This document shows positions 183-61,100 of a stretch of 64,000 nt of DNA, in pieces. Source of the DNA: Liolophura sinensis (Eukaryota > Mollusca > Polyplacophora > Chitonida > Chitonidae); contig NC_088304.1 in assembly GCF_032854445.1 (NCBI RefSeq), positions 2,048,001-2,112,000 of the forward strand, written 5' to 3'. Under the pieces are notes generated by a model. It was not told the origin of the DNA, did not search any database, and saw only the letters and a list, made by a program, of their open reading frames with translations. Position 1 is the first letter of the stretch; the number at the start of each line of letters is the position of its first letter. The translations under genes were made by a program, and so were the position numbers.

Positions 183-368
183 TACGGCGTGGTCGTGACT
201 ACCGTATGGAGGAAGAGGAGGCACCAGAGTGGTTCACGGAAGGGCCTGTCAGTCAAACAGACACAATTGAGCTGCGAGGGTTTGACCGGGTGGAGGAAGA
301 GGATGATGCAGAAGTTGAGGAGAGTCCAGCCCCAAAACCAGCAAGGAAAGAGAGCAAGAAACAGTCAG
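183..368 (+). CDS. EIF4ENIF1: 4E-T exon 1 in window (IEL motif)
   Basis: Acceptor TTTCAG ends at 182; donor GTAGGT at 369. Encodes RRGRDYRMEEEEAPEWFTEG then SQTDTIELRGFD, the IEL element that docks on DDX6 in vertebrate 4E-T. The last ~46 bases (PKPARKESKKQS) are the first unit of the 53-bp array that fills the following intron. Ends with one base of a Gly codon. Confidence 0.93.
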
Positions 369-3300
369 GTAGGTCTGACGAGTCCCAAAACCAGTGAGGA
401 AAGAGAGCAAGAAAGTCAGGTAGGTTTGAAGAGTCCCAAAACCAGCGAGGAAAGCGAGCAAGAAACAGTCAGGTAGGTCTGACTAGTCCCAAATTCAGGG
501 AGGAAAGAGAGCAAGAAACAGTCAGGTAGGTCTGACGAGTCCCAAATTCAGCGAGGAAAGAGAGCAAGAAAGTCAGGTAGGTCTGACGAGTCCCAAAACC
601 AGTGAGGAAAGAGAGCAAGAAACAGTCAGGTAGGTCTGACGAGTCCCAAAACCAGCGAGGAAAGAGAGCAAGAAACAGTCAGGTAGGTCTGACGAGTCCC
701 AAAACCAGCGAGGAAAGAGAGCAAGAAACAGTCAGGTAGGTCTGACGAGTCCCAAAACCAGCGAGGAAAGAGAGCAAGAAACAGTCAGGTAGGTCTGACA
801 AATAGCGAAACCATCAGACAAAGAGAGAAAGAAGCAAACGGGTAGGTCTGACGAGTCCCAAAACCAGTGAGGAAAGAGAGCAAGAAACAGTCAGGTAGGT
901 CTGACGAGTCCCAAAACCAGCGAGGAAAGAGAGCAAGAAACAGTCAGGTAGGTCTGACAAATCCCGAAACCATCAGACAAGGAGAGAAAGAAGCAAATGG
1001 GTAGGTCTGACGAGCCCCAAAACCAGTGAGGAAAGAGAGCAAGAAACAGTCAGGTAGGTCTGACAAATCCCGAAACCATCAGACAAAGAGAGAAAGAAGC
1101 AAATGGGTAGGTCTGACGAGCCCCAAAACCAGCGAGGAAAGAGAGCAAGAAACAGTCAGGTAGGTCTGACAAATCCTGAAACCATCAATCAAAGAGAAAA
1201 GAAGCTAACGGGTAGGTCTGACGAGTCCCAAAACCAGCTAACAAAGAGAGCAACAGACAGTCAGGTAGATCTGACAAGTCATGAAGCCAGCAAAGAGAAC
1301 AAGCCTCGCTTTCAACATCGCTGTTGTAAAAAGTCTGACTCCAAAGTATATTAGAGATGTAATCTCAACAGAGGCAGTAGGCACATCACTATTTTAGAAT
1401 AGTCACGGTTTTATTCCACCAATTCTGAAGGAACGTTAGCCACTTGTGGTACAAAAAAAGTGAATATTTCGAGATCATTTGAGGGATGTCATATGTGATG
1501 ATGAAAATGTTTAAAAAAGAAATGGAGCACACATTTGTTGATTGTGCTGTGCACTTGCCCTTTTTGTGAGGAATTTTCTTTTTGGTTGATATTTTCTGAA
1601 CTAGCCTGTGGAAGGAAAATTAATTAAGCCACTGTGTTGCACTATTGATCCAAATGGCTCCTGATCTATATGCTTAGAAACCTGGTTTTAAATGGTGCAT
1701 GTATTGGATGGTGTGAACAAGTACATATTTTGTGTCCTCAGGTATCTGTGTGACTGACCGTAATGGGAGCCTGGAGACAAATGAGTCCAGTTCTCCTGAG
1801 ACAGAACCACAACCAGTGCCCACTTCCTCCCATGCGGCCATCCATCATCAAAACCGACGTTCACCTGCACACCAGTCCTCCCTATTTGATTTCAATGAGT
1901 TCTTCAACATAGAAAACATTCCAGGCCTTGGTGTAAGTTAGAACATTCATCAGATGCTTTGTTAAGGTTCAAAATCTCTCAAAAGATTTTGAAAAATAAA
2001 AAATGTGGATATGAGTGCAAAATCGCATAATCTGTAAATTTTACCTCCACACTGCCCACCACCTCAAAGTCGTTGTCACAGTAGGGTTGCTGTAGTACCA
2101 AAGTGTTGGTCAGCCATAATCATACATTCACACATTCCCATCCGTGTAGTTTTTCATGTCGTGAACTCGGGAACCGTTAGTGAAAAAAAATGGTAGTGGT
2201 CTATAGCATCGTCCCACCATAATGCTGTTCACCATCGTAGAAGTTAAATATTCTTGGGGGCCACCGTGGCTCAGTCGGTTAGCGCGCTAGCGCAGCGTAA
2301 TGACCCAGGAGCATCTCACCAATGCAGTCGCTGTGAGTTCAAGTCCAGCTGGCTGGCTTCCTCTCCGGCCGTAAGTGGGAAGGTCTGCCAGCAACCTGCG
2401 GATGGTCGTGGGTTTCCCCCGGGCTGTGCCCGGTTTCCAACCACCATAATGCTGACCGCCGTCGTGTAAGTGATATATTCTTGAGTATGGCGTAAAACAC
2501 CAATCAAATAAACAAATAAATAAATAAATATTCTTGAGTACGCCGTAAGAACAACAATCAAATAAATAAAATATAACACGCTGATGTTGAAAGATAGGAT
2601 ATCAATAAAAATTTACCAACTGAAAGACTGATAAAGCAGGTTAGTCACAGCTATGAAGGCGTCTGTCTCAAATAGGTTGAGGACCCAAGTAAGAAAAAGA
2701 TCATGAATAAATCATTTGCTATGGCTGGGGTTTTCTTCAGGACGGTCCAAGCCCCGAATCAGAAATCCGGCACGTGGGAAGCAGATTCTGTCAGTGGTTC
2801 CAGGCAGGTGGTAGTCAAGGAAACAGCCGACACAACAGCAGACGTTCCTCCATCAATGAAGAGTTCCCATACCTTAACGGTGAGTCAAAGCTTCCTAAAA
2901 AGTAAATTACGAAGCATTTCTGTGGCTCTCCTTTTTTGTGGAGATTCCAAAGTTAAAGCTAGTCATTTAAGACTATATTGTTTAAAAGTTCTTTATGGTT
3001 TTGTGGAAAAAACTTTCCAAACTGTTGAGGAGCCTTTACATTTGATTTGATGCCTGGTCCTTGTTATAGACACTGTGAGGTCTCTAAAACGTATACACAT
3101 GGCTGATTGAACATTTTCTATGGTAACAGTGGTATCTCATCAGCAATTCTGAGACATGCAAGGTAACCTTCTGTCATTACCCTGTAAGATATATAATGTA
3201 CCCGTCAGTCAACCCCGTTCAGAAGCTCTGTCATTCACATCCCTATATGCATGTAACAGTTCATTAGCTGAGCCTGCAGAAAGTCATGGGTTCCCACGAG

Positions 3301-4508
3301 CCCACTTTCCTCTCCCCATGATGCTGACTGTTGTCGGATATGTGAAATATATAGGATGGTGTAAAGTGTATAGAACGGTGTAAAACACCAATTAAAACTA
3401 GAATGGATCTGCGAATAGCAGATCCTAGGCCGGGATCCCGGATCGGATGGATGACGTTTTCCCCTTCATGTTCTGTGTTTGAAGGACACATGTTCCACAA
3501 GCACGGCTTTCAAAGATTCCATGCGACCTTACACCGTTTGTCATTGAGGCAGTCGGACGGTCATTTGCATTCCCTCGAATAGATCGGCGACCTTGATGAT
3601 GCTACGCTATGCCCAGTGAAAAAACAGTCGTCCCTTGGCAGGCTTAGCCCGCTGTTAGTAAGAAATAATGCAAAAACACGACCAGTGTAACAGCAAGTTT
3701 CTACATTCACATCTCAATCCACGACCTGCCATGCACAGACTCACTGCTCCACTGATAGCTCGGCCATCGTTAGAAAGTCAGCACTTGGAGCAGGGCACAT
3801 GTCCATATCTGTCAATCACCCTGGCCTGTTTAACGTATAGTAAAGAGGACGAGGTCTGCGCAAAACAAAGCTAACTTTTACAGGTCCACGTCGTTTGCTG
3901 TTGTAGTTAGATGTCTACGCCATCTAATAGAGTACTGGAGTTAGATGGTAACTGGAATCAATGTCATCCTACAACCGTTTCGGGAGATCACGGACAGTGT
4001 AGCCGAAAGCATCAGGTCAAATACTACAAACCCAGTCCAGTCCCCATCTAACTCCATGTTAAAGCAATAGGATTCCCACCTTTTTCTAAACAAAAAACGG
4101 TGTTGTGATTTAAACGCTTGTAGCGAAAAAACTATTGATCGGAGCTCAAATCCGTTGACGAATGTTCGAAAGAGCATGTCTTGGGCTACAATTTCGTGCA
4201 GGTTGCACATTTCTAGCTGTCACAGTTCTCAAATTACAGGTCTTTGAAGTTACGTCACTTTTTTGAGTTTTTGACTTATATCTCAAAAAGTTACACAGAT
4301 ATACAAAAAATACAACCAGATTCGGAATCAGCAGCTCAAGATACATCAGAATACGTTCAGAACATTTGAACTTTGAGAACTTTTTGTGACGTCACAAATT
4401 CGACCAATGCCGAGCTTCCAGAGTTTTGACCGGAAGTAAACTATTTTCGCAAACTTTAAAGAACTCGTGACCTACTAGTTGCATGTCAAGTTTGAAAAAG
4501 ATCGGTTC

Positions 4509-4539
<31 letters not shown>

Positions 4540-5799: not shown

Positions 5800-5830
<31 letters not shown>

Positions 5831-8800
5831 GTTTTACACAAAATCCAATATGGCGGCCGAACCACGTGACATAAGAAAAAAATAAAAAATAACCCCTGGA
5901 AAATCTCTGCCAGATTGTGTGTACAAAATTTGAGACCTCTATGTTGAACGGTGTTTGAGTTCTGCTGCTAACAAGGTCGGTGAAAAAAAAATAATAATAA
6001 TAAGAAAAAACAGAACAATAACAATAGGTATCCCGTTCGGGAGAACGGGATCCCTAATAATAATAATAAGAAAAAACCGAACAATTACAAAAGGGACCCC
6101 GTTCGGGAAGAACGGGATCCCTAAAAATAGATGTATTAGCTGTTATCAGTGAACCTGCGTTTGTTTTCAGAGCTGATCAGTGGCAATCGTAGCCCGATGG
6201 TACCCTCCCCTCACTCCATGGTAGACAAAAACCTCAGCTTTAGCCCCATCCCAGGGCATGAGGAGAGAGGCCCCCCAGGAGATGAGCCACCACCACCACA
6301 AATCAGCAGTGCACCCAATGATAAGTGCTCTCATTGCCAACAACAATGTCCCCAACGCGGAGAAGTCAAACCACAGTGAGTCAAAGTGTCTCCCCTCGTT
6401 TCTGCCTGATGTGAAGCTTTAAAATGTGATGTTCTGTTGGAGTTTAATTCAGCCTTGCAGTATATGTGATGCAGGCATGGAGCAGTTGCATTACTGCAGA
6501 ATTCGAAAAAAGTATGTTTTACTTAAAAGGTCTAAACAATATATTGTCTCCCCCTAACCAGACATAGCCTTTAACCAGGATGACAACAATCAAATTCAGC
6601 TGAGACTGGATTGGCTGTGGATTTTGCACCTTTTGAAGGTCGCAGGTTTCCTTCAGGCACTCTGGTTTCCTCCAAACACTCTGGATTCCTCCACTCATGA
6701 ACCCTTCTGCCAATATAGATGCCAAAAACTTTGCAGTGTAAAGAACCAGACAAGTGTTGTATAACGAAGTGTCTGATATAAGTACCTCTCATCCCAACCA
6801 AATTACTGGAACTGTTTAAAAGTCTAAGGGTCGAAATTAGAATTCATTCATTAGAATTGGTGCAGGTAGCAAAATGTTGTTGAAACATATCACAAGTAAC
6901 ACGACAGCTTGGTTTCTTCATGGCCCATTCTGTCTCCCTTAGGCACGACCAGCAGCCCCCTGTCGGCCAGTGACGCAGAGGCACAGCTCAAAGCTCTTAT
7001 CTTTGGCAAGCTTGCTCCACCTCTTCCAGTGAACGCTCCACACCTGGCATGTCCCCACTCAGTAAGTTATGCTGTCTGTAAAGTGCTTTGTGTTAATGTA
7101 GCTTAAAATAAAACTGAAAATGCAGCTTTTCATTATGTCTGATCTTGATGCTTTCATGATTTTTGTGTTTTTGAAAGTTTACTAATCACATAAATATGTC
7201 AACAGGAAAAAATTTGTGTTACAGTCCACATTTTCAACAAATTAAGACTGTTTTAACATGTATACTGCCCTCCATCAAAAAAAAAAATTTTATTCTGTTC
7301 TATTTAGTGTGGACTTAATGACAGCTTGCACTATTTAGTACACCCCACAGATTCAATTTCACCTTGTACACGAGTAATGTGACTGTTGACTGTAGATCTT
7401 TCTTATCTGTACTTATCTATACTGTATAATTGTCCATGCTGTTGGCACCACTGTCCTGTTTTCACTGGTTTGCCTCTCCCATTGACAGCTGTTCCAATGA
7501 AGGCCAAGACAGTGGCTGAGCTCGAGGCAGACATGCGACCTCTGACTCTAAACCCCACAGAACCAGCCTCTGCCTCGGGCCCTGCCGCCTAGTCACAGGT
7601 CACACCCACCACACCCGCCTCTTGACAACACCCAAAGAATGGGACCAAGGAGAGACGGGTGATGATTTGGCAGCCTTCAACAAGCTGCTGACCCTGATGA
7701 GGGCAGGCGTGGCGGCTGCTGAAAGTCCTCCCCCCAAACTCCAGACAGTAAGTCCTAGAATCAGCAAGGTGTCCTACTGGGCTAAGGTAGTTAAAGGGTT
7801 GGCTCACTGGAACTGCCAGACCTTTGACCTCTTTGTTTGGTTGTGGCTTTACCGTAAATCTTCAGCATTTTCACATGTTTGCAAGATATTTTTTCAAGCA
7901 TATTCTGATGGCATTATCAGTGTAGACTTAAAATTATTATTTTTTGTGAAGCCCTAAAGTTTGTCTCCAAAATCTGATTGAGAAGGTGTACAGAGTTGAT
8001 CATAGGCGAAAAGGTTGAGAAATTAGGGTGTCACAAGGTCTGTCCAGTACCAGGTGCAGGTCAGTGATTCACTTCATGCCGTTTGGTTTCAAAAAAAACA
8101 AATAAATTAATAGGATCAGGTTGAAGAAATGTTAGTGTCATTCGTGAACTTATTCACATGACGCATGTTGTATACTAATTTTTAGGGGTATGGTTTTGAT
8201 TGATTTGCTGTGTATTTAAATCCCTTTAGCTGACCCACCCAGTCAGTTTCATCTGCACAGTCCAATTAAAAATGTCTCAGTGTTGCTTTTATTTTGTGCG
8301 CTATATAACCATCATTTACCCAAATTGTATTATGCCAAACATGGCTACACTGTTTAGCGAGAATGGTTTTAAGTAGCAATCAGTGGACTAAGTAATTAAC
8401 ACTGTATGGTAGATCTCACAGTTGATAGATGTAAATGCAAGTATTGAAGCAGATGCACATCCCAGTTAAAGGGGTAGAAAATTTAAATGTCAAACAAATA
8501 CCATTGATAAGAGGATGCATTTCCTCGCAGGTGAATGCCATGAAAAAAATTCTAATACATACCTCAAGTTGATAAATTATAAATGAAGTCAGCGCCAAAA
8601 TCCGCTGTGGGTGACTCCATTTTGCCTAAGAACTAGTCCTGAAGTCTTCTGTGTTTCAAGGAGAATTGCCGCCGGGAACCACCGAAGTGCACTTTGTACA
8701 TTTCCGGTAGAACTCTTCTTCCCAGAAGGTAGCGAACAGTACAGTCCGTTTTCCACTTGACGATCGGGAAACTGAAGTGTTGGACGTAGGTTCCGAGTTT

Positions 8801-14800: not shown

Positions 14801-17800
14801 TGGTTGAGTTTGTCAGTGTCTCTGTGATCGTCAGTCGTAACATTATTCACTCCACTTTCACCTATAAAACTGCCCCCCGCCCCTTCTGTTCAGGAAAATA
14901 TGCTGGAATGTGGTAAGCTACAATTAAATGAAAGTATACCCTATTTCTTCAACCTTTTCAACCACCACTGCAACTAGTATTTTGAAATATTCTGAGAGAA
15001 GTATAGGGTGTAGAGAAATCTATTATTACATATCATTTTTGGTGTCATTTTTATAATAATTGTATGCCAAAATTTCACTGAAAAAGCTTCGGAGGTCGAG
15101 AAGTTTTTACAGTAAGTAAATGAATATCTTAACGGCAAGGATCGAATAGGCCTCTTGGACTTAAATCCACCCAGGGCCTTCATGTATGTATTATATATTG
15201 TATGTGTTACACCTTGTGCTGTACTTTATAATCGTGGTGAATAAGTTCAAACTTGATCCCACGTATCTTGACTGTTTCAGCCCACTGTGACAATGGCTTT
15301 TACCCCAACCTCCGTGATGAGGAAGATGCACTCTGACAAAGTGGAAGAGAAAGAGAAGCAGGCCCGAGGGGATACGCCTACTGGCAGTAACCAAGGTAAC
15401 CACTGCAGTCTGAGTCACTGATAAAATCAGCTGACACACAGCTTGGAGATGCTTGACTTTACAAGGGCCGTGTGATCGTGCCTGGTGTAATCTTATGAGC
15501 AAGATATAAGAGCTAATCCAAAAGCTAATCAAAACTAGACTGTTTAGATTCGGTGTGCTTTCTCTTACCACTATAAATTATTGAATAACATTATTTTTTT
15601 CTTTTTACCAGCTTTAACAGATTTTGGACTTTTCTTTGGTTTATCATTTATTAATATTCCCCATAACAGCAAAGATTGTGGGGAAGCATGTGTGTTTTGT
15701 GAACATCTAATGTAGCAGGTAGATTTGAAAATTGCAATTAAAGGTATCGGCAGCACCCATCTATGTAGCCATTTTGATTTTTGAAATTATGTGGTGTCCG
15801 TAACCTATTAAATGTCCTCGGACCCCTATTAGTTTTCCGTATGAGACATGGTTAACGATTAGTCCTGTAACTCACCCCCAAACATGCAGTGGCCAATAAG
15901 CATTGGTGCCTGCCTTGACCAGCGCGGGAGAGTCTTGACATGGGTTAACCATCAAAATCTGGACCTTCATGTATGCCAGCAGCTGGGAGGGGTACCTAGC
16001 AACTCTGAGGGAACCTCACTGGCAGCCTCATCACCACCTGACACCTTGTGTCTCATCTCAAATAATTTCAAACTGTTTCAATCTGTAAAACTCATACCTC
16101 CCCAAAGCTTAGACAATTTCCATTAATTCATTAATTTTTATGCATGCACCTGCACACCAAAAATGGCTGGCCGGCAGCGAAAGGACTTCACACCCAAATG
16201 TACACAAAATTACGTTCATAATTCCTCACAAATGGAAATGTTCATAAGGGCCTTGTTCCAAATAACTGCCATCTCACAGGTCTTGAGCATTTTAAACAGG
16301 AAAGCAAGTAACATTGTGTGGGACAGGTACATATACACCTACATGTATATCAATGCATGTGGTTGTTTGGTTCACAGGTTCCCCGTCTCACCAGCCTCAC
16401 CGGCACCTAGAGGACGATGCCCGGAGGTTAGAGAATGGTCTGGAATCCAGCTTAGGCCCAGGTGGTCCCTTCCAGAATATCCCTATGAGCATGGGCAATG
16501 GGTCCATGAAGGACCCTGAACTGACCAACACCTCCAACCTTCGCCATATGCCAGCTGTGAGCGGCATCTCTAGTGCTAGTCAACAGGTCAGTGGCTTTCT
16601 TCCTAGTTTGTGTAGGTTCTGGTAGGTTAGGGGCCACGTTCACAAAACTTACTCCTATTTCTTGTAACTTTTTTTCAATGTTGTCTTTGTTATAACGCTG
16701 CTAAGACCTCAGGATTTAAGACAAAAAATTTTGAAAAATTGATTTAAGACTATTTGTGAAAATGGACCCCCACACGATTGCATATAGAGATTCTTAGGTT
16801 TCAATCCCAAATTTCATATTTGCCATTTTTGGGTGGGCGTGTGAATGATCTAATGATTTTTTCACCACGCCCAAACTGTACCATGCCAATAAATACAAAC
16901 TTTCCTCTTGTCTCAGTACCTCCCAAACTATGCCACACCAAAAAATGCAAACCTTCCTCATGTTTCAGTACCCCCAAACTGTACCATGCCAATAAATGCA
17001 AACCTTCCTCATGTTTCAGTACCTCCCAAACTGTACCATGTCAATAAATACAAACCTCCCTCATGTTTCAGTATCTCCCAAACTGTACTATGTCAATAAA
17101 TACAAACCTTCCCCATGTTTCTGTACCTCCCAAACTGTACCATGCCAAAAAATACAAACCTTCCTCATGTTTCAGTATACCCAAAATGTACCATGCCAAT
17201 AAATACAATCCTCCCTCATGTTTCTGTACCTCCCAAACTGTACCATGCCAAAAAATACAAACCTTCCTCATGTTTCAGTATACCCAAAATGTACCATGCC
17301 AATAAATACAAACCTCCCTCATGTTTCTGTACCTCCCAAACTGTACCATGCCAATAAATGCAAACCTTCCTCATGTTTCAGTATCTCCCAAACTAAACCA
17401 TGCCAATAAATACAAACCTCCCTCATGTTTCTGTACCTCCCAAACTGTACCATGCCAATAAATACAAACCTTCCTCATGTTTCAGTATCTCCCAAACTGT
17501 ACCATGCCAATAAATACAAACCTCCCTCATGTTTCTGTACCTCCCAAACTGTACCATGCCAAAAAATACAAACCTTCCTCATGTTTCTGTATCTCCCAAA
17601 CTGTACCATAGCAGTAAATACAATCCTCCCTCATGTTTCAGTACCTCCCAAGCTGTACCATGCCGCCTGTAGGAAGTTTGGCTCACCAGCAACAGGTGGC
17701 CGCTGCGGCAGCCTTCAAGGCAACGCAGGAGAAACTGGCCAAGCAGGCACGTGCTGTGATTGGTCAGGGATCCATGCAGGCTCCGGTCTCCTTGTCCACT

Positions 17801-20800
17801 CTACCACTCAACTCTCAGAACCATGGCAGACCAATTGTCAAGGGTCAGTACCATAATAGATCATAAACCTGTAGGAATTTCTACAACTTTCATGTTAAGG
17901 GTTCAGTACCTAAAACTGTCGTCACACGGGGCAATTTATAAGTTGGTTAAAAATAGGATTATGTTTGGGCATCTTTCAACCAGAATTGATAAATGGCAAG
18001 TGAAACGATTGTTGGATTTGGAAACAATTTCTTTCCTTTTGTACTATAAATACCAGGAGCAAGCTGCGGATGGTTGTGGGTATCCCCAAGGCTTTGCCTG
18101 GTTTCCTCCCACCATAATGCTGGCCGCCATCGTGAAATACTCTTGACTACGGTGTAAAACGTCAATGAATTAAATAAATATGAATGCTAGGATGTGATAT
18201 CTGTTTCACTGTTCTCAGCTTAGCTTCTAGAAATACGCCGTTTCCATTGACTAGAAACTTGGTCTTTTAGAGTTTGCTGTCTTTAATATGTTAAAGGTGT
18301 ATGCTACAAAAATATGTTTCCTTAAATCCTGAAGTTACTCTAACTTTATTACTTAGTTATTCGTGTAGAATTATGACCATAATATCACAATAACACACCC
18401 GGTATGTCAACAGCAAGCCAGACTTCACTAATCACCATTTACGATTTGACTCCGTCGCACTCATCATCGTGTGAAAAAAAAACTCCTAGAAGTTTTAAGA
18501 GTGAACCATTTTTGTTTCAAGAATAAAGAGAAGGAACTGTAAGTAACTATAGTGAATGAAAGATTTTAATTTTTGGGAATCACATGATTTGAAAATGGCA
18601 GTATGTGAAGTTTAGTTGCTGTCTGGGTAGGCACATTGGCTATTGTGTGTTGAATGGGAAGTCATGGTCTTCAGTATTCACACATAATGCATGATTAGAT
18701 GTGCAAGCTGAACTAAGAACATTCCCGACCGTTCTCAGAGCTATATAAATACCTATACAATTGCTACATGGTGTAACCAAATATTGTTTGCAAAAGTTGT
18801 CTGTGTGGCTGTGCTGTGTGGCTTTGGACTCTCAACTTGTCTGTCTACTTGTCACTGAGTTCTAGTCCAGTTCATGTGAGCTTCCTCTCTTGGGAAGGTC
18901 TGGTATTTCTCGATTACCCCCCCCCCCCCCCTTCCACTTCTCCCCCCAAAGCAAGATACTGGTTGCTTTTGTATAAATGTAATATTCTTCAGTTGGAAAA
19001 AAACTGTGATCAAATGAATAAATAAATGTTTGTCTATAGGTCAGCCCGTGGCATCTACGATAACCACTCCAGCTTCCATGGGTATGCGTGGGGTGACGGT
19101 TGCAGGTAGCAAACCCGAGTCAAGCAGCCAACCCCAGCTCCCAGCCACCTCTCAGGTCAACCTGGACATGGCCAAACTGCTGGAACAACAACAACGACTT
19201 CAACAACAACAGCGCCAGCTTACACCGGGCACGTTGCCACGTAACATGGGCCCAGGATCAAACCCGTATAGTGTATCCCCACTCCCAGGGCGCATGCCCA
19301 TCCAGTCAGGCATGATGCCCCCACCGGTCAACGTGCCCCCTAACCCTCTCCTTGTGCAGCAGCTGATGCAGGGTGGGGTGAACCCAGCAGCTAGAGGCAA
19401 TAGTAAGTAGGAGCAAATAGTGTGGATTGTTTTGTATGCATTCTACCTACGGAATAAGATCTTGAGCAGAATTTTTTTGAGATATTCGTACAGGGAATAT
19501 AACTTTGATACCTATTTTATGCTAATGGTAGAACTCATTTTTTGAAGTTGTCCAACATGCTGGGTATGCTTTCGGTTTGAATGTGTTGGTATTGTAAACA
19601 CAGGCTTCAGAAACATTGTTGACCTTTCTCTTGTTATGGGCCAATCAGGAATTAAACTCCTTACAGTTGACTTAGATGGTTCTTGTTGCTGATATAAAAA
19701 TCCTGTTGTGTGAAGAGCGTGTGGGTCTGGTGGAATATCCAGGAATCCAAAATTGCATACTACGTTTTCAACTTATTACTTCACAAAAAGGCCTGCTTTT
19801 TACATTCTTGTAGCTGGGTTTAATTTTTTCGCTTGAAGTTGGCCAAAGTCAATACATTCCTGTTCAGAGAAACTAATCTTTTGCTTTTAATATTGATGTG
19901 AGAAAATGAGACACTGCACATTGTATGCAAACCGAAGCTCGAAACGCAGGAGGTCAATCACACATTTTGAACTGGCCTATGAGGCCTCACTGCTCGTGCT
20001 CTTGTGTATGATCTGCAAATAATGTGGCATGGGGCTGTTATCAAGAGTCTTTAACTTTATGATGGCCCGAGATATTTACAATAGACTAAAGTATTTACCT
20101 TACGCTGGATTCTCAAAGCATGTCCTGACCATACGTGAGAAGGTCTATTAGCAAGCTGCAGTGGTCATGGGTTTCCCTTTCTCCTTTCACCATTGTGCTG
20201 CCCTATGTTATATAAATGAAATACGTCTTGAATATGGTGTAAAACACAAATCAATCAGATAAATAATAAATAATAAATCAAAGCTTGTCAGAAGTCTCAA
20301 GCTACATAGATCCACGATAAAGCGGCTACACTACAACAGTCTTTATTATCTGTAACCCTATAATTGTCCCGGGATTGGAAATAATCCAGGGCACGTACAT
20401 TGTACTCTCTAATCGACTTATGTTCACTTCGTTTTGTTCCAGGCAGTACCATGAACCAGATTAACCAGTTAAACCAACTTAACCAGTTAAACCAACTCAA
20501 CCAGTTAAACCAGCTCAACCAATTTGCAGTGCTTACGGCCCAGCAGCGATCAGTGGACCCGAGACTCCAGGTCAGGGGAGGCTACCCAGGCAACATCCTG
20601 ACACCTCGGAGCCCCGTGCCCCCATCAGCTGTCAACCCTGCTCTAGGTCGAGCTCTATCCCCTAACATCCAGGCACAGACATTAGGTGAGGAAAAATGGC
20701 CTGAACTAAATGGCTTCCATAAAGACACCTGTCCATGGTTACAACTGTAAACATAATGATGTATCATACCTAATAGTCAGAGGGAGAGTCCTCATGGGCT

Positions 20801-28620: not shown

Positions 28621-28621
28621 G

Positions 28622-32168: not shown

Positions 32169-32218
32169 AAAGTGGAATTTGACCAGTATCAAGCAAATTA
32201 TTGGCCTGCCTTCACACT

Positions 32219-32700
32219 CGCCATGTGACTGAAAGCGAACCATAGGCCTACCTTCACACTCATCATGTGACTGAGAGCAAACCATAGGCCTATCTTCACA
32301 CTCATCATGTTACTGAGAGCGAACTATAGGCCTACCTTCCCACTCATCATGTGACTGAGAGCGAACCATAGGCCTGCCTTCACACTCATCATGTGACTGA
32401 AAGCGAACCATAGGCCTACCTTCGCACTCATCATGTGACTGAGAGTGAACTATAGGCCTACCTTCACACTCACCATGTGACTGAGAGTGAACTATAGGCC
32501 TACCTTCACACTCATCATGTGACTGAGAGCGAACCATAGGCCTACCTTCACACTCATCATGTGACTGAGAGCGAACTATAGGCCTACCTTCCCACTCATC
32601 ATGTGACTGAGAGCGAACCATAGGCCTACCTTCACACTCATCATGTGACTGAGAGCGAACTATAGGCCTACCTTCCCACTCATCATGTGACTGTGGGCCA
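32219..32700. repeat. 42-bp minisatellite, about 11 copies
   Basis: Unit CATAGGCCTACCTTCACACT plus CATCATGTGACTGAGAGCGAAC. Because 42 is divisible by three, one frame stays open on the minus strand, giving a 14-residue periodic ORF that I do not regard as a gene. Confidence 0.9.
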
Positions 32701-35441: not shown

Positions 35442-35676
35442 TTATTTATCTGTTAGCGACAGTTGTATAATTCTATTAAGCTCCTCCTCTTCTTCTCTCC
35501 GGCGCTTCTCCGTGTCCTCGAGTTCACGCTGCGACATTTCTAAGGCTAGACGCAAGTCATCGTCCAATGATGTGTCCCGAGGTAACGGCTGTGTTGTTGT
35601 TGTTGAAGGTCCAGTTTCTGGGTTTTCCTCTGAACCTGGACTAATCACACCTGACTGTAGACTCTCAGCTATTGCC
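35442..35676 (-). CDS. ANKRD13: ANKRD13 last coding exon (UIMs 2-4), stop TAA
   Basis: Acceptor TTACACAG. Begins [14 protein letters not shown] (completing UIM 2 with EDQLLQR), then [17 protein letters not shown] (UIM 3), a Lys/Arg/Glu run, and [17 protein letters not shown] (UIM 4), stop at 35442-35444. The acceptor and first bases are the exon-proximal unit of a 71-bp array. Confidence 0.95.
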
Positions 35677-38600
35677 CTGTGTAAGCAACCAAACAACAAT
35701 AAACAACAAAAGTACAAAACTTCTAAACTGTAGATTCTCAGCTGATGCCTTGTGTGAGCAGCTATATGACAATGAACAATGCTTGTACAAAATTTCTAAA
35801 CTGTAGACTCTGAGCTATTGCCCTGTGTGAGCAACCATACGGCAATGAACAAAGTGTACAAAACTTCTAAACTGTAGACTCTCAGCTATTGCCCTGTGTG
35901 AGTATCCATATGACAATGAACAATGCTTGTACAAAATTTATAAACTGTAGACTCTGAGCTATTGCATTGTGTGAGCAACAATAAGGCAATGAACAAGGTG
36001 TACAAAACTTGTAAACTGTAGACTCGGAGCTACTCAGCCATTGCCCTGTGTGAGTAACCATATGACAATGAACACCTGTACAAAACTTCTAAACTGTAGA
36101 CTCTGAGCTATTGCCCTGTGTGAGCAACCATACGGCAATGAACAAAGTGTACAAAACTTGTAAACTGTAGACCCTGAGCTATTGTCCTGTGTGAGCAACC
36201 ATACGGCAATGAACAAAGTGTACAAAACTTGTAAACTGTAGTCTCTGAGCTATTGCCCTGTGTGAGCAACCATACGGCAATGAACAAAGTGTACAAAACT
36301 TGTAAACTGTAGACTCTGAGCTATTGCCCTGTGTGAGCAACCATACAGCAATGAACAAAGTGTACAAAACTTCTAAATTGTAGACTCTCAGCTATTGTCC
36401 TGTGTGAGCAACCATACGGCAATGAACAAAGTGTACAAAACTTCTAAACTGTAGACTCTGAGCTATTGTCCTGTGTGAGCAACCATACGGCAATGAACAA
36501 AGTGTACAAAACTTCTAAACTGTAGACTCTGAGCTATTGCCCTGTGTGAGCAACCATACGGCAATGAACAAAGTGTACAAAACTTCTAAACTGTAGACCC
36601 TGAGCTATTGCCCTGTGTGAGCAACCATACGGCAATGAACAAAGTGTACAAAACTTCTAAACTGTAGACTCTGAGCTATTGCCCTGTGTGAGCAACCATA
36701 CGGCAATGAACAAAGTGTACAAAACTTCTAAACTGTAGACCCTGAGCTATTGTCCTGTGTGAGCAACCATACGGCAATGAACAAAGTGTACAAAACTTCT
36801 AAACTGTAGACTCTCAGTTATTGCCCTGTGTGAGCAACCATACGGCAATGAACAAAGTGTACAAAACTTCTTAACTGTAGACTCTGAGCTATTGCCCTCT
36901 GGGAGCAACCATACGGCAATGAACAAAGTGTACAAAACTTCTAAACTGTAGACTCTCAGTTATTGCCCTGTGTGAGCAACCATACGGCAATGAACAAAGT
37001 GTACAAAACTTGTAAACTGTAGACTCTCAGCCATTGCCCTGTGTGAGCAACCATGTGACAATGAACAACACGGGAAGAAAACTTCAACACTGTAGACTCC
37101 TAAGCTGTTGCCCTGATTGACACTGACTCATCAATTGGTGTTCACCATCGTGCTCAAGCATTATGATGACGGCCAAGTTTAAGGATGAAGGAAGAAAAAA
37201 AGGTATCTGTGGAAAGCGCCAACTTTTGCGAGGTACCTGACAACCCTTCAGACTTAAAGGTTCAGCTGAAACAGCGACAGCTAGATTCAAACATGTGAGT
37301 TCATTAGTCAAGGCCCTGATAGATGTAGCATATTTACAGTACAGTGGTATACGGTGCTGAAGACATTAGAAGGTAGAGTCTCGCTCAATCACAGTGTTCT
37401 GACACAGAACTGACCAATCCTTGGCCTACAATCCCTCTGACTCAGATGCTTACATAGCAAGGCTGTCACTGGTTCGTCTTGAACATTACCGTAGTTGGAG
37501 TCAAACCTGAGTCTCTCATGTACAAAGGTTAGGACTAAAAATGATTTAATCCGTTCCCAGTCGCACAAAGAGATCCTTGCTACAATCTATTGTATGCCCT
37601 ACAATTTAGTTTACAATTGACTGTACAACATAATGACTCAGCAGCTAACAACATGTGAAAGAATTCTCATAACTTCTTCTTGAGTGAATTAAAATGCACA
37701 TATTTGCAAAACCAAGTCAAAACATTCTACCTAGCATGCTATCTAAGGCAAGTATTTGTAGTATGACATTAATTTGGGGGAGATTGAAATATTTACAGAA
37801 GGGTCGACCCTATTGTAATTTCTGCTTGTAAGTTAGGCCTACAACTACTGTAGCTTACAGTCCCTTTGTGCAAGAGGGTGTCGCTGGTAAGCTAAGGCTA
37901 TGATCCAGATCTTGATTTACAATCAACTTAGGCTTACAAACCCTTCTGCGCGAGCAGTTCGATTGGTATGTAAAACAGCGTTCATGAATTGTTCACTGAT
38001 ATGATGCTGGTCAGGTTTATTGTTGAAGGAAACAAGAGGGTCCAGAGTAAACCACTGACCTTCTACCAACAAAGAGAGCTGGGTTTGAACAGGTAATCTC
38101 CTAGATCACAGGCTTGATAGGTGCAGTGAGACAGCACTTTAACCATGTCTACAAGCCTTGTGCTCTAACTGTTCAGTCACTGGGATGAGGTACGGTAAAT
38201 GACCTAAAGTTTCACACCTGAGATACTGTCGTTTACTTTCGCACCGATCTGAGTTGGCGGCAAGATAACAGAAGAGAGTGAATAGCTCCCCCCCCCCACC
38301 CGTTTCAATCGAAGACAGTATTAAGACAGGTGAAGTCTATTACAAACGTTTAAATTCCAAACGCTGTCTCAAATCATGACCATGCCAAACAAGGAATGTA
38401 CACGCAAAATGTACACTGCAGACAAACTGAATATTTGGATTAGGCCTATGTGGAAGTCACCTCACACCGTTATCTGGTGAAGGGTTGTCTGCTGAGAGCA
38501 ATCATTATGCAACTAAGAAGTTTACAAATGTATTTTAGGTAAAATCGAATTTCACTAAGAAATATCTGTCATCAGCTTCAGGTGTCCATGTAATTCCAAA

Positions 38601-40572: not shown

Positions 40573-40643
<71 letters not shown>

Positions 40644-43600
40644 TACATGAAATATGGAAACATTCAGGACCTATGCAAGAAAACAGAAAGTCTGGGGATA
40701 CTAAGGCAAGTGGCAATACTGGAATACAGAAAGCCTGGGGATACTGAGGCAAGTGGCAATACTGGAATACAGAGGCAAGTGGCAACACTGCAACACAGAA
40801 AACCTGGGGATACTGAGGCAAGTGGCAATACTGCAACACAGAAAACCTGGGGATACTGAGGCAAGTGGCAATGCTGAAACACAGAAAACCTGGAGATACT
40901 GAGGAAAGTGGCAATACTGGAATACAGAAAACCTGGGGATACTGAGGCAAGTGGCAATATTGCAACACAGAAAGACTGGGGATACTGAGGCAAGTGGCAA
41001 TACTGGAATACAGAAAACCTGGGGATACTGAGGCACCTGGCAATACTGGAATACAGAAAACCTGGGAATACTGACGCAAGTGGCAATACTGAAATACAGA
41101 AAACCTGGGGATACTGAGGCAAGTGGCAATACTGGAATACAGAGAACCTGGGGATACTGAGGCAAGTGGCAATACTGGAATACAGAAAACCTGGGGATAC
41201 TGAGGCAATACTGGAATAAAAAGACATGACTGTCAAATATTGCTACAATGCTGAAAAGATAATTTCAAGGCTTTTTGTAGTAACAAACAGGATTATGACA
41301 CCTTTTGTCCAAGAATGACTGAACGGTTAAATATTAAAATTACTTGCTATTCAAAAAACGCAGATTAGCAATAATGCTGTAAAGGAATGTACAACAGAAA
41401 TCACGTGTATATAATATCATATAGGCTATGTGATACAGCATATTCTTTTTGGTCCAAACTAATAAGGGGGGATAACTTCTGTCTTACCTGGTCATTTTCT
41501 GTGCCAGCCTCCAGGAGGCTTTGTTGTATTGCAAACTGGAGCAGTTCATCATCCTCATCTCTTAGCCTAGACTGGTGAGCTTCACCTGAGAACACACAAA
41601 AAACAGTCTGAGCAACAGCTTCACCTGAGAACACACAAAACAACTATCTGAAAAACAGCTTCACCTGACAACACACAATACAACACTGTCTCAATATAGG
41701 CTTCACCTGACAACACATAAAACAGGCCCAATAACAGCTTCACCCTATAACACACAAACAACATTATTTAAATAACAACATCACCTGAGAACACACAAAA
41801 CAACATTGTTGGAATAACAGTTTCACCTGAGAACACAACACTGTCTGAATAATAACTTCATCTGAGAACAAAGACCTGTCTCAATAACCACTTCATCTAA
41901 GAATGCACAAAACAACACTATCTAAATAATAGAACAACCAGCCTTGACAGAGTTGTATGACACAAAAATCTGCTTTCAATAAGAAACAACACTGATTTGT
42001 GGCTGAAGGACCAATGCACAGGATGTTGTCCAAGTGACAACTCAGTGATACAGGAGTGTAGCCTCTCTTGGTCTTTGACCTTTTCTCATTTTAGAACATA
42101 CAAAAAAAATGTCTCACCAATATTTGCATAACTAGGCGGAGGAAAGAAACTGGACTCATCCACAGAGCAGGTCATCTCGTCATTTTCACGCACGCATTCC
42201 ACTCCCGGAATGGGCTCTTCTGAGGCGAAGATGTTCCCAAATGTGATTCGTGCATTCAGGATGTGGAATAATGGAATTTCTGTAAGAAATAAGATGTTCA
42301 ACCATGTACATTATGACTGACAAAAGGAGATATCCGAGCTAATAAGCATCGACATATGAAATAATAATATAATAATAATGTATATCACACTTAAATTTGA
42401 GCTTTTATTAAACTTATAATGTATTTATTTGTTAGACTGTTGTTTCACACATTTCTCAAGATAATTTCAATGATGTGCTGGTTCACCACTGTGAACTACT
42501 GATCTTTGGCAAGTTACTGACAAACTTTCCTACGTGTGATGTACAGATGGACATACCATAATGATAAATGGCAAGTGGCCTTTTACAAACATATCAACTG
42601 TGCAAATGCGAACACCAGAAGACCAGCATTACCAAAATCTTACATGTATGCCCCACCATCGTGGTCTGCAAGAACCCGCACCTTTTGAGTCCGAGGATTT
42701 TAACTTTCAGTGCATTCACAGCTTAGTGATCTCTTTCAGGCTATGCCAGGTTTCACTGACCCCAAAACCCTGCCTGCCATCATATGAATGATCTATTCTT
42801 AAGCACCACAAACCAAACAAATAAATCACTTAATCCAACGGACCTATTTTCACAGGAAATCCAGCTGGGAGCTGTAAGGTGATAAAATCGCGGAGTTTCC
42901 TGAAGTGAGCGTTGTTTGCAGCCATGAGATCAATGATAGGGATCACCTGATCCTGAAGGGTTAGAGGGTAGGATTCGCACAACCACAAGTTTGCCTTGAA
43001 TTTCTGCGTCTTTGTTGTCTGGTCCATGGGCCGACCAATGTCCCTGTCTCCGAGGTCAATGTGCACGTTGAAGTACTCCTCCGGCGTGATGTTTGAGGGA
43101 TTGTACATGACTGACATCAAGTCCTGATCACAACAACAACAAGAAACATTCACACATACACACACACATATCCTGAATCACCACACAAAATTTCCTCCAC
43201 TGTAACCAATTTTGTTTTTTTAAATAAGTGTTTTCCAAAAGTGCAAGAAGAAACAAGGTATACTTTTTATATTCCATCGAGAGATTATCCGCCAAACACA
43301 TTTTGATTTTGAAACACATAATTTTGGAGGAACACCCAAATGTTTGAACAAATAGTATAAGGAGTTCAATAAAAGACACCACTTGATTGGTTGACCAGAT
43401 GAAAATTATCCCTTAAAATCGTAAAGAGAACAGATCAGTTATTTACTTCTTGATGCCTGATTGGTGTTTATGCCAAAAATCTCACCCCATTGGAGGCTCC
43501 GGCTTCCCTCTTGCTGTGTTCCTCTGCAACCCCCAGGAAAGACTCCAGGGGCGTTCTGTTCACCTTTTTACACCTTTTCTTATCCTGCTCTGTCAAATGC

Positions 43601-46600
43601 TCTGTTCTGGTTTTTGTGATTAGCTCTACATTAGACGCACCAAAAACCTGAAACATTAAAACATCTCCGTCAGCTGCAGTTGTACTGTGTAGGACGCAAT
43701 TCGTCCTAAAGCAATTTGAAAGTTAGAAACTAAAAACTGGAAAAAAGAAACTACAAGACACATATCTGTTGACCTATCTATATATCTCATCCGCCATAGT
43801 TGCACTTCATACAGTTTTGGATTACTCCACTATCTAGTGCTTGCTGATTTGTCGGAGATATCACATGACAAATGCTTTTCTTTGAATAATAATGGTCAAA
43901 TTAAAAAAAGAAAATCCAATGGACACCATTTTTTCCTGTATGGTAAGGATTTAAAATTTAAATTTCTGACATTATTTCAATGTTAACAAGTTGTACATGT
44001 ATATCCTTATGGCAGTGCCGTCTCTATGATGCCTTGTTTGAAGTGCTGCCTCATTGTATCACCATGCTACGGACACCAGACATGACAGCATGTTCAATGG
44101 ACCAATGCTGCAAAGGTGGTTAACAGGACTCACCTTACATTCATAGCCATTCACAGTCTCAGACTTATCACTTCTCCAGCCCCAAATACCAGACTTGTTT
44201 CTGGGGAAAAGAGTTCAATTTAAAAAATTCGAAAGAAGAGACAACACCAGACCAATTGTATAAATACATCAACAAAGTATCCCACATGAAGTTTTAAAAG
44301 CACGCCGTTTTATTTTCATGATGTTGCATAGCTGAGATATCACAATTCAAAGAAATGAAAATCGCAGACATTAAGAAAAACAAAAGTGCCGCCCTGTTAT
44401 CAATTTAAACCAATCAGATACTTGTAAGTCACTCGAAGCCTGTCTTGTCTTTTTTTCACACATGATTGGGTTATGAGTGACACAATATCATATTTCCGGT
44501 TATTCTAACATGGCGTAACCCTTAGTCAAGTAAGAATTCCAGATTAAAAATTGATATATGCAGTTAACGTGTTAGAAAAAATTGTCTGTGACCCTTCAGG
44601 TCTGTTTCCAACCCTCTTCCTAAATACCCCTGGCTATATTATTTACGGTCATTTCTTTTAACTTTTTTCCAAATGTTTATTTTTTGCAAAGACTTCAATG
44701 CATCCGAGGAGTCCATTAAAAAACTTAATATAGAATTCATATACACACGTAACTGACACAGGGCATTGCAGATGTTGACAATGATAGGAAAAATGTGTGC
44801 CAGTTACATATGCTAATTTTGTTAATTCATTTTCAATACTAAAACTACAGGAATGTGGCTTGAATTTTTTAGGGAAAAAAACATACATGAAATGTCCGTG
44901 TCTCACCTCTCAAACGATATTTTATCTGTGTCAATATACGTGGTGACAATGGGCGACATAAGTCGAGCTGCAACTGCCTCTTCTGAAGGCAGGCCTATAT
45001 CAGAGGGCGACACTGTCAACTCCATGGTCTCTGCATAAACTTCACCTCTGTCATGATCAACCTCCATTACTGTGGCAGAATTCCCTGAAACACAAACAGC
45101 CTGTGATAAACTTTCCCTCTGCATTAATCGACATCCATTGCTGTGGCAGAATTCCCTGAAACCCAAACAGCCTGTGATAAACTTCCCCTCTGCATTAATA
45201 GACATCCATTGCTGTGGTAGAATTCCTTGAAACACAAACAGCCTGTGATAAACTTCCCCTCTGCATTAATAGACATCCATTGCTGTGGTAGAATTCCTTG
45301 AAAAGCGAGCATTCTGCCAATGACTTGTTCTCGCTCAGCATTTGCATTACATGTATTGGTAGCCATTAACTAGACTTATATGCCGGGAAAATGCTTAGAA
45401 CCTTTCTAAACCAGGATACATACATTTTAGTTCACACAACAAGCCATTTGCAACATCATTTACAAAATATCACAATTTTGATACTTCAATGGCATCAGAA
45501 CTGGCCTCTTCTATACAAAAGGTACACATACTATTTCTATTTTCCCAAACAGGTGTACACCAGGAGGCAGTTGGTCAAGAATATATTAAAGTTAAACCAG
45601 ACTTAAATCTTATATATTTATTTGATTGGTGTTTTACCTTGTACTGAAGAATATTTCACTTATATGACGGCGGCCAGCAATATGGTGGGAGGAAACGGGG
45701 CATAGCTCGCGGAAGAAACCCACAACCATTCCCATGGTTGCTGAAAGACACTCCCACTTATGGCTGGGGAGGAAGCCAGCATGAGCTGGACATGAACTCA
45801 CAGAAACCACATTGGTCAGAGGCTCCTTGGTCACTGTGCCACACTGGCGTGCTAACCTCCTCAGCCATGGAGGCCCCTGGCTTAAATCTTAATACCAGTG
45901 TCAACATAATACAAAGTAAATGGTACTTTAGTCTATACTAAAGTTAATACCAGGCTTAAAATCTAATACCCATTTGAAAAACTTGGCCATGACATTTAAA
46001 TCAAGTTTAAGTTTACAGAGACCATAATTTTTTAGATGTATCCTGCAGGGGTTCACAGAAGTCATCTTTCACTTTCTGGGCAAAATTAATTTTTTTTTTT
46101 TCAACTGAAATTGAGTTTTGACAAACCATTTTTTGTGATACTAACATTGAATATTTTTGTATGTTACTATACTTCACTGATTGATGTAATTACCACTGCC
46201 TAAATATAAATCCAAGCTGGCCTCATTGGCTAGTTGATACTGGAAAATGATTATCAGTACACATTGTAGTTTAATATTGTTACATGTATTTCAGGATACC
46301 AGTGCAGTGAAGTGTGAAGACCTGCCTAGAAACCTAGAGCATCAGTCTAGATTGACTAAAACGGACAACAACAGAAATTGGTCTTGACATCATTTTTAAA
46401 AAATATTCAACTGTCATGAATTAAGACAAAATGGTCATGCTTTAATGGCTTACGGAATATGTGGTGGTCAGTTGTCACTCTCAGTCTGTAAAAGGAATTG
46501 TCAAAAATGATCTAAAGCAAAAAAAAAGGAAAAAAAAAAAAGAAGAGAAAATCAAAAATCATTCAACACCTTACATGTATATAGAGGGGTAACATATTTA

Positions 46601-49841: not shown

Positions 49842-49873
<32 letters not shown>

Positions 49874-54775: not shown

Positions 54776-54804
54776 CCACTTTTCGGCATCTATTTACAGA
54801 TTTA

Positions 54805-54816
54805 CGACAATTGTCG
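54805..54816. promoter_or_regulatory. Perfect palindrome CGACAATTGTCG
   Basis: 12-bp perfect palindrome in the shared promoter. Possible dimeric factor site; no factor assigned. Confidence 0.3.
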
Positions 54817-55147
54817 ACTGCTTTTTGACAGCCAGTAAAGCTAATGTCAAAAAGACATCCGCATATACGTATCTAACATTCTTCAATATTTTAAAAATGT
54901 ATGCAAGCTCATCGTTCAACTATAGATGTAAAATACATTTTTAATAATTCCTTTCTTATCTTTCACAAGACATCACAAGACAACAACTCTGACTGAAGCA
55001 TAGAAATACAGTCATAGCTTGTCCGCCAGTTCGAATTCCTAAAGGGCACTCCGACTGTAAAGCGAGGAGAAATGGTTCTTGTGTTTATTTCTTAGATTTG
55101 TTTTGATTGCGGGATATAGTCGTGTTTTCATGTCTAGGGTTAAGTCA

Positions 55148-55193
55148 ATGAGCCGGTCGCCAGCTGAAATATGCGCAGACTGCACGGCATTCG
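55148..55193 (+). CDS. GIT: GIT exon 1 (start codon, first zinc Cys pair)
   Basis: MSRSPAEICADCTAF plus one base; donor GTAAGT. Cys9 and Cys12 are the first two zinc ligands. Alternative upstream in-frame ATG at 55130-55132. Confidence 0.88.
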
Positions 55194-58100: not shown

Positions 58101-61100
58101 TCTATTAAGTAAGAAATTAGTGAGCTGTATGACAGACAAGTCTATACATCCTGCGTGGCAAAGTTTGTGAGTAATTGCATCATGCGGGCAATTAAACCCC
58201 AGGCACTCCAGTTTCCTCCATCCATAAACTGATTGGAATTCTGGTGTATTAAACTATAGTTAGATAAATAAATAAATAAATTGGTCGACCAGACACAACA
58301 TCGGTTCGAAACATTGTCAACAAATGCTGAACAGCTTTAAGCAGCAGGAGTACCAGTTATCTTTGATGCTTTGATGTTTTGGTTCACAGGCTGTTCAGCA
58401 GTTGGCTAACAGTGGTGCTAACAACATCTGGGAACATGCCCTGCTAGACCCCACCCATGGCAGGCCTATTAAACGGAAACCCACTCCCAGAGACCCTGTA
58501 CAGTAAGTACACATGTACATGTAGCAGTCTTCTTAATGAGAACACACTGTTTTAGCAGCAGTTTTATGTTAGGAAGTTACCAGGGTTACATTGTCCAGGT
58601 GTGGTTGATTCCCTCACTCAAAAAACCTGGCTGCTGTCACAGAAGTGAAATATTCTTCTTGTGTAGGCCAAATGAGTTAGGAAGGAAATACATGACAAAC
58701 CCACATGCATACATGTACAACCTGTTTTGTTGTGAAAGTTAACGGTACATTTATATACCAGATAAATTTACCTTCCAAATTACCTTTAATGGTATCCCCC
58801 ATCAAATATTATGAAAATGATAAAATATTAGAAAATTTCAACTGCTGGTTAAATTAATCTGTATTTGATTTATTCATTTATTGTGGTTGTTTTTTTTCTT
58901 TTTCAGCCCCAATAAATCAGATTTTATTCGCAAGAAATACCATTTCTTAGCATTTGTGAACAAACATAACAAAGACCTGGAACATAACTCAGTAGAAGAC
59001 CTTAGTATGGTGAGTAAAATGACTTACTCGTGTGTAGAATGGCATGTTCGTGTATGGTCAGTAGACTGACATACTTGTGTGGTGAGTAGAATGGCTTACT
59101 CGTGTTGTGTGTAGAATGGCATGTACATGTATGGTGAGTAGACTGACATAATTGTGTGGTGAGCAGACTGACATACTTGTGTGGTGAGTAGAATGACACT
59201 CGTGTGGTGCATAGAATGACCTACTTGTGTAGTGAGTAGAATGACATACTTGTGTGGTGAGTGGAACAACATACTTGTGTGGTGAGTAGAACGACATACT
59301 TGTGTGGTGAGTAGAACGACATACTTGTGTGGTGAGTAGAATGACATACTTGTGTGGTGAGTAGAATGACATTCTTGTGTGGTGAGTAGGAAGATGTGTG
59401 TGGTGAGTAGAATGACATACTTGTGTGGTGAGTGGAATGACTTTCTTGTGTGGTGAGTAGAACGACATACTTGTGTGGTGAGTGGAAGGACTTTCTTGTG
59501 TGGTGAGTAGAACGACTTTCTTGTGTGGTGAGTAGAACGACATACTTGTGTGGTGAGTAGAATGACATACTTGTGTGGTGAGTGGAAGGACTTTCTTGTG
59601 TGGTGAGTGGAATGACATGTGTGTGGTGAGTAGAATGACATACTTGTGTGGTGAGTGGAAGGACTTACATGTGTGGTGAGTAGAACGACATACATGTGAT
59701 GTGAGTAGAATGACGTACTTGTGTGGTGAGTAGAATGACATACATGTGTGGTGAGTAGAATGACTTACATGTGTGGTGAGTAGAATGACATACATTTGTG
59801 GTGAGTAGAATGACGTACTTGTGTGGTGAGTAGAATGACATACATGTGTGGTGAGTAGAATGACTTACATGTGTGGTGAGTAGAATGACATACATGTGTG
59901 TTGAGTAGAATGATGTACTTGTGTGGTGAGTAGAATGACATACATGTGGGGTGAGTAGAATGACTTACATGTGTGGTGAGTAGAACGACGTACTTGTGTG
60001 GTGAGTAGAATGACATACATGTGTGGTGAGTAGAATGACTTACATGTGTGGTGAGTAGAATGACATACATGTGTGGTGAGTAGAATGACTTACATGTGTG
60101 GTGAGTAGAATGACATACATGTGTGGTGAGTAGAATGATGTACTTGTGTGGTGAGTAGAATGACATACATGTGTGGTGAGTAGAATGACGTACTTGTGTG
60201 GTGAGTAGAATGACATACATGTGTGGTGAGTAGAATGACATACATGTGTGGTGAGTAGAATGATGTACTTGTGTGGTGAGTAGAACGACATACTTGTATA
60301 TTGTAAATTTTCAGCCTTTTCAACCTCTGAAGCGCTTTTGCGAGTGGAATTTATGCATATAAATTATTATGAAAATGACTCCAAAAGGATTTGTTTGTGA
60401 CACAAAAAATAGAAGCTTCATAAAACAGTGCATTTTATTTCTTTACACCACATATTTTTCTCAGAATATTTCAAAATATTGGACACACAGGTGCTTGTAA
60501 AGGTTGAAGAGTTGGAGACAGCAGTATTAACGTATGGAAGGCTAACTGAAACAATGGTCAATCATCACTTCATTTCATGGGGTGTTAACTGTGGTGTGTA
60601 CATGTAGAATGTAGAAAAGTTAATGAAACCAGATTTAACTGGTCTTTGAATTATGTTCTTGGGTGGGTTTGGTTTCTCAATATTGTAAAAATAATTGTGT
60701 TGGTTGTTCGATCCAAACATGAATATTATCATGTTAAAAGACAAACAAGTAGCCCAACCATGCGATGAAGTTTCAACGTCATTTGGCACTGGGACGTCAC
60801 TCTTGTTGTAATGACATAACTCAAAAAATGCATATTGTGGTTACATGTATTTGTGTGCTGATTATAATTGATAACTTGGTGTGGTAAAAATATATGCAGG
60901 GTTGTATAAAGATGGATTATCTTTGCAGATATGCATGCATGTACATACATGTACACTGTCTTTTAGTGTTGTCTTTTCTTTAGAAAATTTGTGAACATTT
61001 TGGTTCTTCCTGTGAGCACTGTATTGGAAGAACTGCTTTACTTTAGTTTATTTACTAATTTGATGGGTTTTACACCGTACTCAAGAATATTTCACTTATA

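Follow-up and report, generated by a model that had tools for sequence, protein, structure and literature searches.

The 64,000-nucleotide stretch of the chiton Liolophura sinensis analysed here (assembly GCF_032854445.1, contig NC_088304.1, positions 2,048,001 to 2,112,000 of the forward strand; the whole stretch is called the window) carries three adjacent genes, which were modelled as 4E-T, ANKRD13 and GIT. A previous sequence-only reading of the window had described six tandem arrays spanning splice junctions in these genes. We read the junctions base by base and found all six, two in 4E-T, three in ANKRD13 and one in GIT, with the reported division into four 3′ and two 5′ splice sites. 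Each array includes the end of a coding exon, its splice site and the flanking intron, as judged from the Tandem Repeats Finder (TRF) list together with reading of the sequence. The gene models came from a small gene finder followed by anchored exons, with exons predicted computationally and in part adjusted by hand; when spliced, the models of 4E-T, ANKRD13 and GIT keep an open frame over the array-bearing junctions. The sites given in the sequence-only reading were right, but three of its exon numbers (14, 12 and 14) became 13, 11 and 13 here, because the 5′ or small exons of the models are ambiguous. The junctions and arrays are as follows.

182..368, + strand: 4E-T coding exon, 5′ splice site at 369 (PF10477 match, sequence and gene model)
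331..1280, + strand: 53-bp minisatellite, 18 copies, 5′ splice junction duplicated (TRF)
16870..17664, + strand: 52-bp minisatellite, 15 copies, 3′ splice junction of the following exon duplicated (TRF and sequence)
17642..17843, + strand: 4E-T coding exon after the second array (gene model alone)
35442..35676, − strand: last exon of ANKRD13 (gene model; UIM_2 match at its end)
35654..37115, − strand: 71-bp array, 20 copies, 3′ splice junction duplicated (TRF and sequence)
41488..41585, − strand: ANKRD13 exon with a ubiquitin-interacting-like motif (gene model; RAP80_UIM and UIM matches under the cut-off)
41578..41903, − strand: array of about 40-bp units, 3′ splice junction duplicated (TRF and sequence)
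44907..45084, − strand: ANKRD13 exon within the ANKRD13_C domain (PF11904 match and gene model)
45035..45303, − strand: 71-bp array, 3.8 copies, 3′ splice junction duplicated (TRF and sequence)
58907..59009, + strand: GIT exon 4, ending DLSM before QLHSSVRTGN (ungapped GIT2 6jmt alignment at the junction)
58999..60297 (left end approximate), + strand: 25-bp array, about 50 copies, 5′ splice junction duplicated (TRF and sequence)

Structure and independence of the six arrays

Residues 1-408 of the 4E-T model match PF10477, and the first 4E-T array repeats the last 38 bp of exon 182-368 plus the 5′ splice site, with GT in 17 of 17 unused copies. The second repeats 23 exonic bp and keeps AG in 8 of 14 unused copies; its junction at 17642 falls beyond the stretch submitted to Pfam and is placed by the gene model only. 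The ANKRD13 model matches PF11904 (E=8.6e-99, protein residues 125-430) and also ankyrin repeats. Its array at 45035-45303 repeats 50 bp of coding sequence, with AG at the aligned place in one of three unused copies, while the array at 41578-41903 carries 8 exonic bp (AG in 7/8 unused copies) and that at 35654-37115 repeats 23 exonic bp (AG in 17/19). The GIT model matches ArfGap and Ank repeats in Pfam, and its alignment with GIT2 chain 6jmt runs ungapped through the exon-4 junction. About 10 exonic bp, judged by eye, are repeated in its array, and GT is present in 50 of 51 unused copies; TRF starts this array at 59051 and not at the exon end because the first copies have decayed.

The earlier view that the arrays arose by independent events was supported by the comparison of units, since among 19 arrays from the window and from the kinesin genes described below, unit-unit alignment scores were no better than those of shuffled sequences. 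A genome search with three of the window arrays returned only their own locus, although the tool skips common words and so leaves their rarity unproven, and the GIT array returned its own locus plus a handful of partial matches (66-72% identity). When a 4.1-kb query containing two ANKRD13 arrays was used, the other matches listed (40 of 1033 candidates were scored) fell in a dispersed repeat between the arrays. These searches, made in one assembly, gave no full second copy or second allele of any of the six arrays.

This dispersed repeat occupies 44224-44666 of the window, and dozens of copies at 66-80% identity are among the genome matches listed. Two more arrays in the window contain splice-like motifs. 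One, with a 43-bp unit carrying a 3′-splice-site-like motif, lies in the ANKRD13 intron at 40679-41208; no attached exon was found for it, and it is perhaps the relic of a lost exon. The other is a 42-bp (14-codon) array at 32203-32693, outside all three gene models, whose unit has a 5′-splice-site-like motif and whose minus strand is mostly open and encodes SHDEWEGRP-type repeats.

Junction arrays in kinesin and myosin genes

Within 35 modelled introns of the window there are 12 arrays, and 6 of them span a junction against 1.0 expected (P=1e-4), but this P value is post hoc, because the window was chosen for its junction arrays. A separate test sample consisted of 33 kinesin-motor and 6 myosin regions, which were taken from Pfam matches and selected blind to repeats; the kinesin regions were picked for compact exon clusters ahead of any look at their repeats. 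The kinesin exon chains resolved 169 introns (9 of 178 intron candidates were skipped), and TRF reported 67 arrays in 241,333 bp, with 43 rows in resolved introns, which became 39 arrays after rows were merged by hand. An array was counted as junction-spanning if it extended 6 bp or more to each side of the junction. Under the null model, each seed was dropped evenly over the collapsed intron plus the junction-straddling positions.

With one-unit seeds, this analysis showed that 10 of 39 kinesin arrays span a junction where 3.27 were expected (P=0.0009), and that 6 of 12 myosin arrays, in 41 introns, span one where 1.47 were expected (P=0.001). For the two families together the count was 16/51 against an expectation of 4.74 (P=5e-6), which means an approximately threefold excess over even one-unit seeding. 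Thus, the overlap of arrays and junctions exceeds chance in both samples under the seed-placement null. Four of the six spanning myosin arrays adjoin exons with their own Pfam match; the array exons of L038 and L039 are purely predicted, and when fused with their neighbours they gave one unbroken Myosin_head match. At least one junction array was present in 11 of the 33 kinesin regions and in 5 of the 6 from myosins, so the three window genes look typical of the genome, and the earlier impression that their clustering is unusual was not borne out.

The enrichment test uses curated TRF arrays, which is a departure from the plan. The probe test planned earlier flagged 11 junctions, one of them (L009) doubtful, and misses L025, L026 and the L030 acceptor, three junctions that are evident from TRF and from reading the sequence. 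From the enrichment count we omitted L009 for its weak similarity, the L003 acceptor at 6847, where the array ends 26 bp short, and the outer junctions of L017, L019, L033 (donor 4390) and L038 (second donor), that is, three kinesin arrays and one myosin array.

Arrays make up 20.8% of resolved intron DNA in the kinesins, 31.8% in the myosins and 22.5% in the window, and exon interiors of the kinesins are almost free of them (3/4000 probe positions). In the kinesin regions the GC fraction was 0.425 in array sequence, 0.364 in other intron, 0.465 in exons and 0.41 in junction windows, and with GC-weighted seeding 3.9 kinesin arrays were expected to span a junction instead of 3.1. Composition accounts for a small part of the junction excess, and longer founding duplications may account for more. 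The units of the 32 non-spanning kinesin arrays contained no splice-like motifs beyond those of random intron windows, and non-spanning arrays were not strikingly close to junctions (twice the nearest distance over the free length was about 0.44 against 0.5 expected, from 29 rows computed by hand).

Two of the sampled regions have further peculiarities. In L030, the kinesin exon 3888-4059 is flanked on both sides by junction arrays with differing units (3425-4458, gene-strand coordinates). In L035, a myosin exon (EDQI.QANPVLEAYGNAKT) occurs in three similar forms one after another, at 695-800, 1191-1284 and 1794-1887, and these are perhaps mutually exclusive exons.

Spare splice sites, direction of copying and age of the introns

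The spare splice sites were tallied over 26 junction arrays in 42 gene regions, 15 at 5′ sites and 11 at 3′ sites. Among their 495 unused copies, GT or AG was intact in 406, which agrees with the proposed reservoir of ready-made splice sites, and 165 equalled or exceeded the score of the used site. The intact copies lay a multiple of three from the used site in 133 of 406 cases, one third, as chance predicts. Within arrays, conservation of the core dinucleotide did not differ significantly from that of its flanks (z=-1.5 for 13 donors, z=1.7 for 10 acceptors), and none of the tests for purging or preservation of spare sites gave a significant result. This pattern is what neutral decay predicts, and it favours the suggestion that duplicates are tolerated as intron; the arrays are probably neutral to the gene, and splicing presumably uses only the exon-adjacent copy. 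The used copy was not set apart from homogenisation either. In a 24-bp window, applied to 23 of the 26 arrays (three with fewer than five copies were left out), identity was 0.863 between used and unused copies and 0.854 among unused copies (P=0.19).

The direction of copying can be judged where the repeated exonic part is long enough to be compared at the protein level. The ANKRD13 unit repeats its 50 bp of exon from within the ANKRD13_C domain. The L038 unit includes 53 bp from a myosin exon whose alignment with myosin-Ic is gap-free over the junction. The units of L010 and L019, translated by hand, encode EAMSINKSL and LMFGQR, and both resemble kinesin references. Since codons are conserved in these four units, the coding exon is there identified, from sequence comparison, as the source of the array.

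All ten kinesin introns with junction arrays lie at a position and phase shared with another kinesin, compared with 71% of 159 other introns; positions were taken as shared within 2.5 residues on the profile, and for one intron the L030 acceptor was used as it stood before its correction. The array-bearing introns are also longer, with a median of 1192 bp against 550 bp in the others (P=0.03). Sharing of positions with paralogues suggests that they are old introns that grew, and not new ones, so the arrays appear to have enlarged kinesin introns that look old. The intron growth expected in the sequence-only reading was thus supported, but intron gain by such duplications, which it had also brought in, was not, as none of these ten introns gave a sign of having been newly created by its array.

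Outside this subject, seven COX1 matches about 15.5 kb apart, one of them partial, were noted at 8348-102844 of C99, and another on the 15,209-bp contig C632. The C99 series may represent tandem mitochondrial genome copies, either nuclear or an assembly concatemer. Mitochondrial COX1 stays open if TGA is translated as a residue (genetic code tables 4, 5 and 9), a trait that taken singly does not distinguish phyla. Amphioxus, a candidate source in view of its mirages, received no backing from a search for GFP-family proteins, which gave no match, although such a negative does not demonstrate absence. The species of the published chiton assembly (PMC11068029) was afterwards corrected to Liolophura sinensis (PMC12441733).

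Origin of the arrays and comparison with known systems

We consider it probable that these arrays are mirage-type minisatellites, that is, duplications astride splice junctions which expand as intron. A segment of roughly 22-121 bp that by chance lies across an exon/intron boundary would be duplicated in tandem, and the spliceosome would stay with the exon-adjacent copy, which still yields the normal exon size and frame. Choice of the exon-adjacent copy for exon size and frame corresponds to exon definition. The additional copies would then land in the intron, where the array could grow free of cost by ordinary minisatellite mutation, and recurrence of this process over the genome would lengthen old introns and stock them with intact, apparently unused splice sites.

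Several observations weigh against this reading, or against the strength of the evidence for it. Seed length is an assumption that governs the strength of the junction excess: the combined expectation rises to 7.3 for seeds of 1.5 units (P=0.001), to 9.6 for 2 units (P=0.02) and to 13.5 for 3 units (P=0.25), and at 2 units the kinesin sample by itself has P=0.12. A count by single bases finds 11 of 377 kinesin junctions in an array, compared with 955 of 5144 random intron positions. This per-base view, in which junctions are poorer in arrays than introns, was set aside for the question of where arrays start, because it counts each array copy, so that a forty-copy array scores forty times. Array rows and exons were in some cases merged, corrected or dropped by hand; myosin rows went from 13 to 12, the L030 acceptor, first set at 3919, was corrected to 3888, and myosin exons that the predictor had proposed implausibly were omitted. 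Many exonic parts are just 7-15 bp and say nothing on direction. AG was intact in 142 of 204 copies of 3′ sites, GT in 264 of 291 copies of 5′ sites, and the stronger loss of AG might point to selection acting on upstream AGs; however, the core is not significantly different from its flanks, and much of the gap comes from the homogenised array L018, which keeps only 1/25. Finally, the predictor also placed a 78-bp exon with a weak acceptor at 499-576, within the first 4E-T array. It was excluded from the 4E-T model, and it would leave the frame unaltered because 78 is a multiple of three, so that use of an inner copy may be conceivable at this array in view of the prediction.

One rival is chance seeding with no junction preference, in which introns so rich in arrays must have some arrays that cross their junctions. 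Arrays fill 21-32% of introns that are several hundred bp long, founding duplications of three units would bring the expectation close to the observed count (13.5 for 51 arrays), the GC-rich preference of arrays raises the kinesin expectation somewhat, and the 32 non-spanning kinesin units are not splice-like. However, the combined excess is significant with one- or two-unit seeds, and the one-unit excess appears in both gene families, so we judge this account rather unlikely. A different direction of events is assumed by exonisation, in which the arrays were intronic first and a splice site shifted into them, the exon ends being captured array. Such an origin would be compatible with the shortest exonic parts, which do not reveal the direction (7 bp in L012, 8 bp at 41578-41585, 9 bp in L024, 10 bp in L026 and 15 bp in L025), but it is hard to reconcile with the conserved codons in the units of ANKRD13, L038, L010 and L019 and with the gap-free GIT-GIT2 alignment at the junction, and it seems very improbable.

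We give equally little credence to functional arrays, whose spare sites would be retained for regulated alternative splicing or splicing robustness. Many unused copies do score as well as the used site, and according to the part of PMC4039745 at hand the CeRep25B minisatellite is over-represented near multiple alternative splicing regions of C. elegans; but here the in-phase share is that of chance, the core dinucleotides are conserved no differently from their flanks, and the units are unrelated from gene to gene. An introner-like or other mobile element inserting at splice sites could produce recurrent placement at junctions, but every unit is built from the local exon and intron, units are no more alike than shuffled sequences, three window arrays match only themselves genome-wide in a search that skips common words, the GIT array has only its partial matches elsewhere, and the other matches listed for the query with two ANKRD13 arrays fall in a separate dispersed repeat, which makes this explanation the most far-fetched of all.

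Beyond the mirage-type reading, we put forward tentatively, and with more doubt than belief, that a mutational process favours splice junctions and seeds arrays there at about three times the rate of the remaining intron. Such a bias could stem from transcription, RNA:DNA hybrids or co-transcriptional splicing, and if it is true, intron growth is driven from exon edges. Introns growing from their edges, and junctions as mutational hotspots, become testable in this material. The arrays also offer natural experiments on splice-site choice, in which as many as about fifty nearly identical 5′ or 3′ sites compete side by side and apparently just the one next to the exon is used.

The phenomenon is not new in kind. 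Mirages, described in PMC3087553 and PMC3902484 as far as these sources were available, are minisatellite-like tandem duplications of exon/intron boundaries in the amphioxus genes Adh3, BflGb6, BflGb9, TnC and PGBD5, and they have the same structure. Our literature search gave no paper combining minisatellite and chiton, which is weak evidence since most subscription journals lie outside its reach. Nor did titles and abstract openings at the top of long result lists mention such arrays in molluscs, again weak evidence of absence, and the terms tandem repeat and minisatellite are both absent from the main text of the chiton genome comparison PMC12005716, as accessible. What was a curiosity of a few amphioxus genes is here extended to a distant phylum, where it is common across the gene regions sampled.

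According to the accessible parts of the amphioxus papers, tandem units there cross 5′ or 3′ boundaries, both boundary types and several unrelated units occur, many inner AG and GT signals are intact, and unit sizes (10-160 bp) overlap with those of the chiton. The authentic boundary is used in amphioxus mRNA, whereas its use is assumed in the chiton. Copy-number polymorphism and somatic instability are reported features of amphioxus mirages, whereas the chiton arrays are known from one assembly. Exclusion of the boundary copy from homogenisation, a typical feature of BflGb6 in these sources and not part of the definition, does not appear in the chiton. The chiton case differs further in its phylum, Mollusca, and in its 26 arrays from 42 gene regions examined with a null model. 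Human segmental-duplication paralogues, to judge by the title and abstract opening of PMC2812944, are similar in that tandem repeats alter gene structure. The model that PMC3087553 cites from Rogers (1989) likewise has a duplication extending over an intron/exon boundary whose splice signals are used again, but a new intron results there, whereas in the chiton introns at shared, probably old positions were enlarged.

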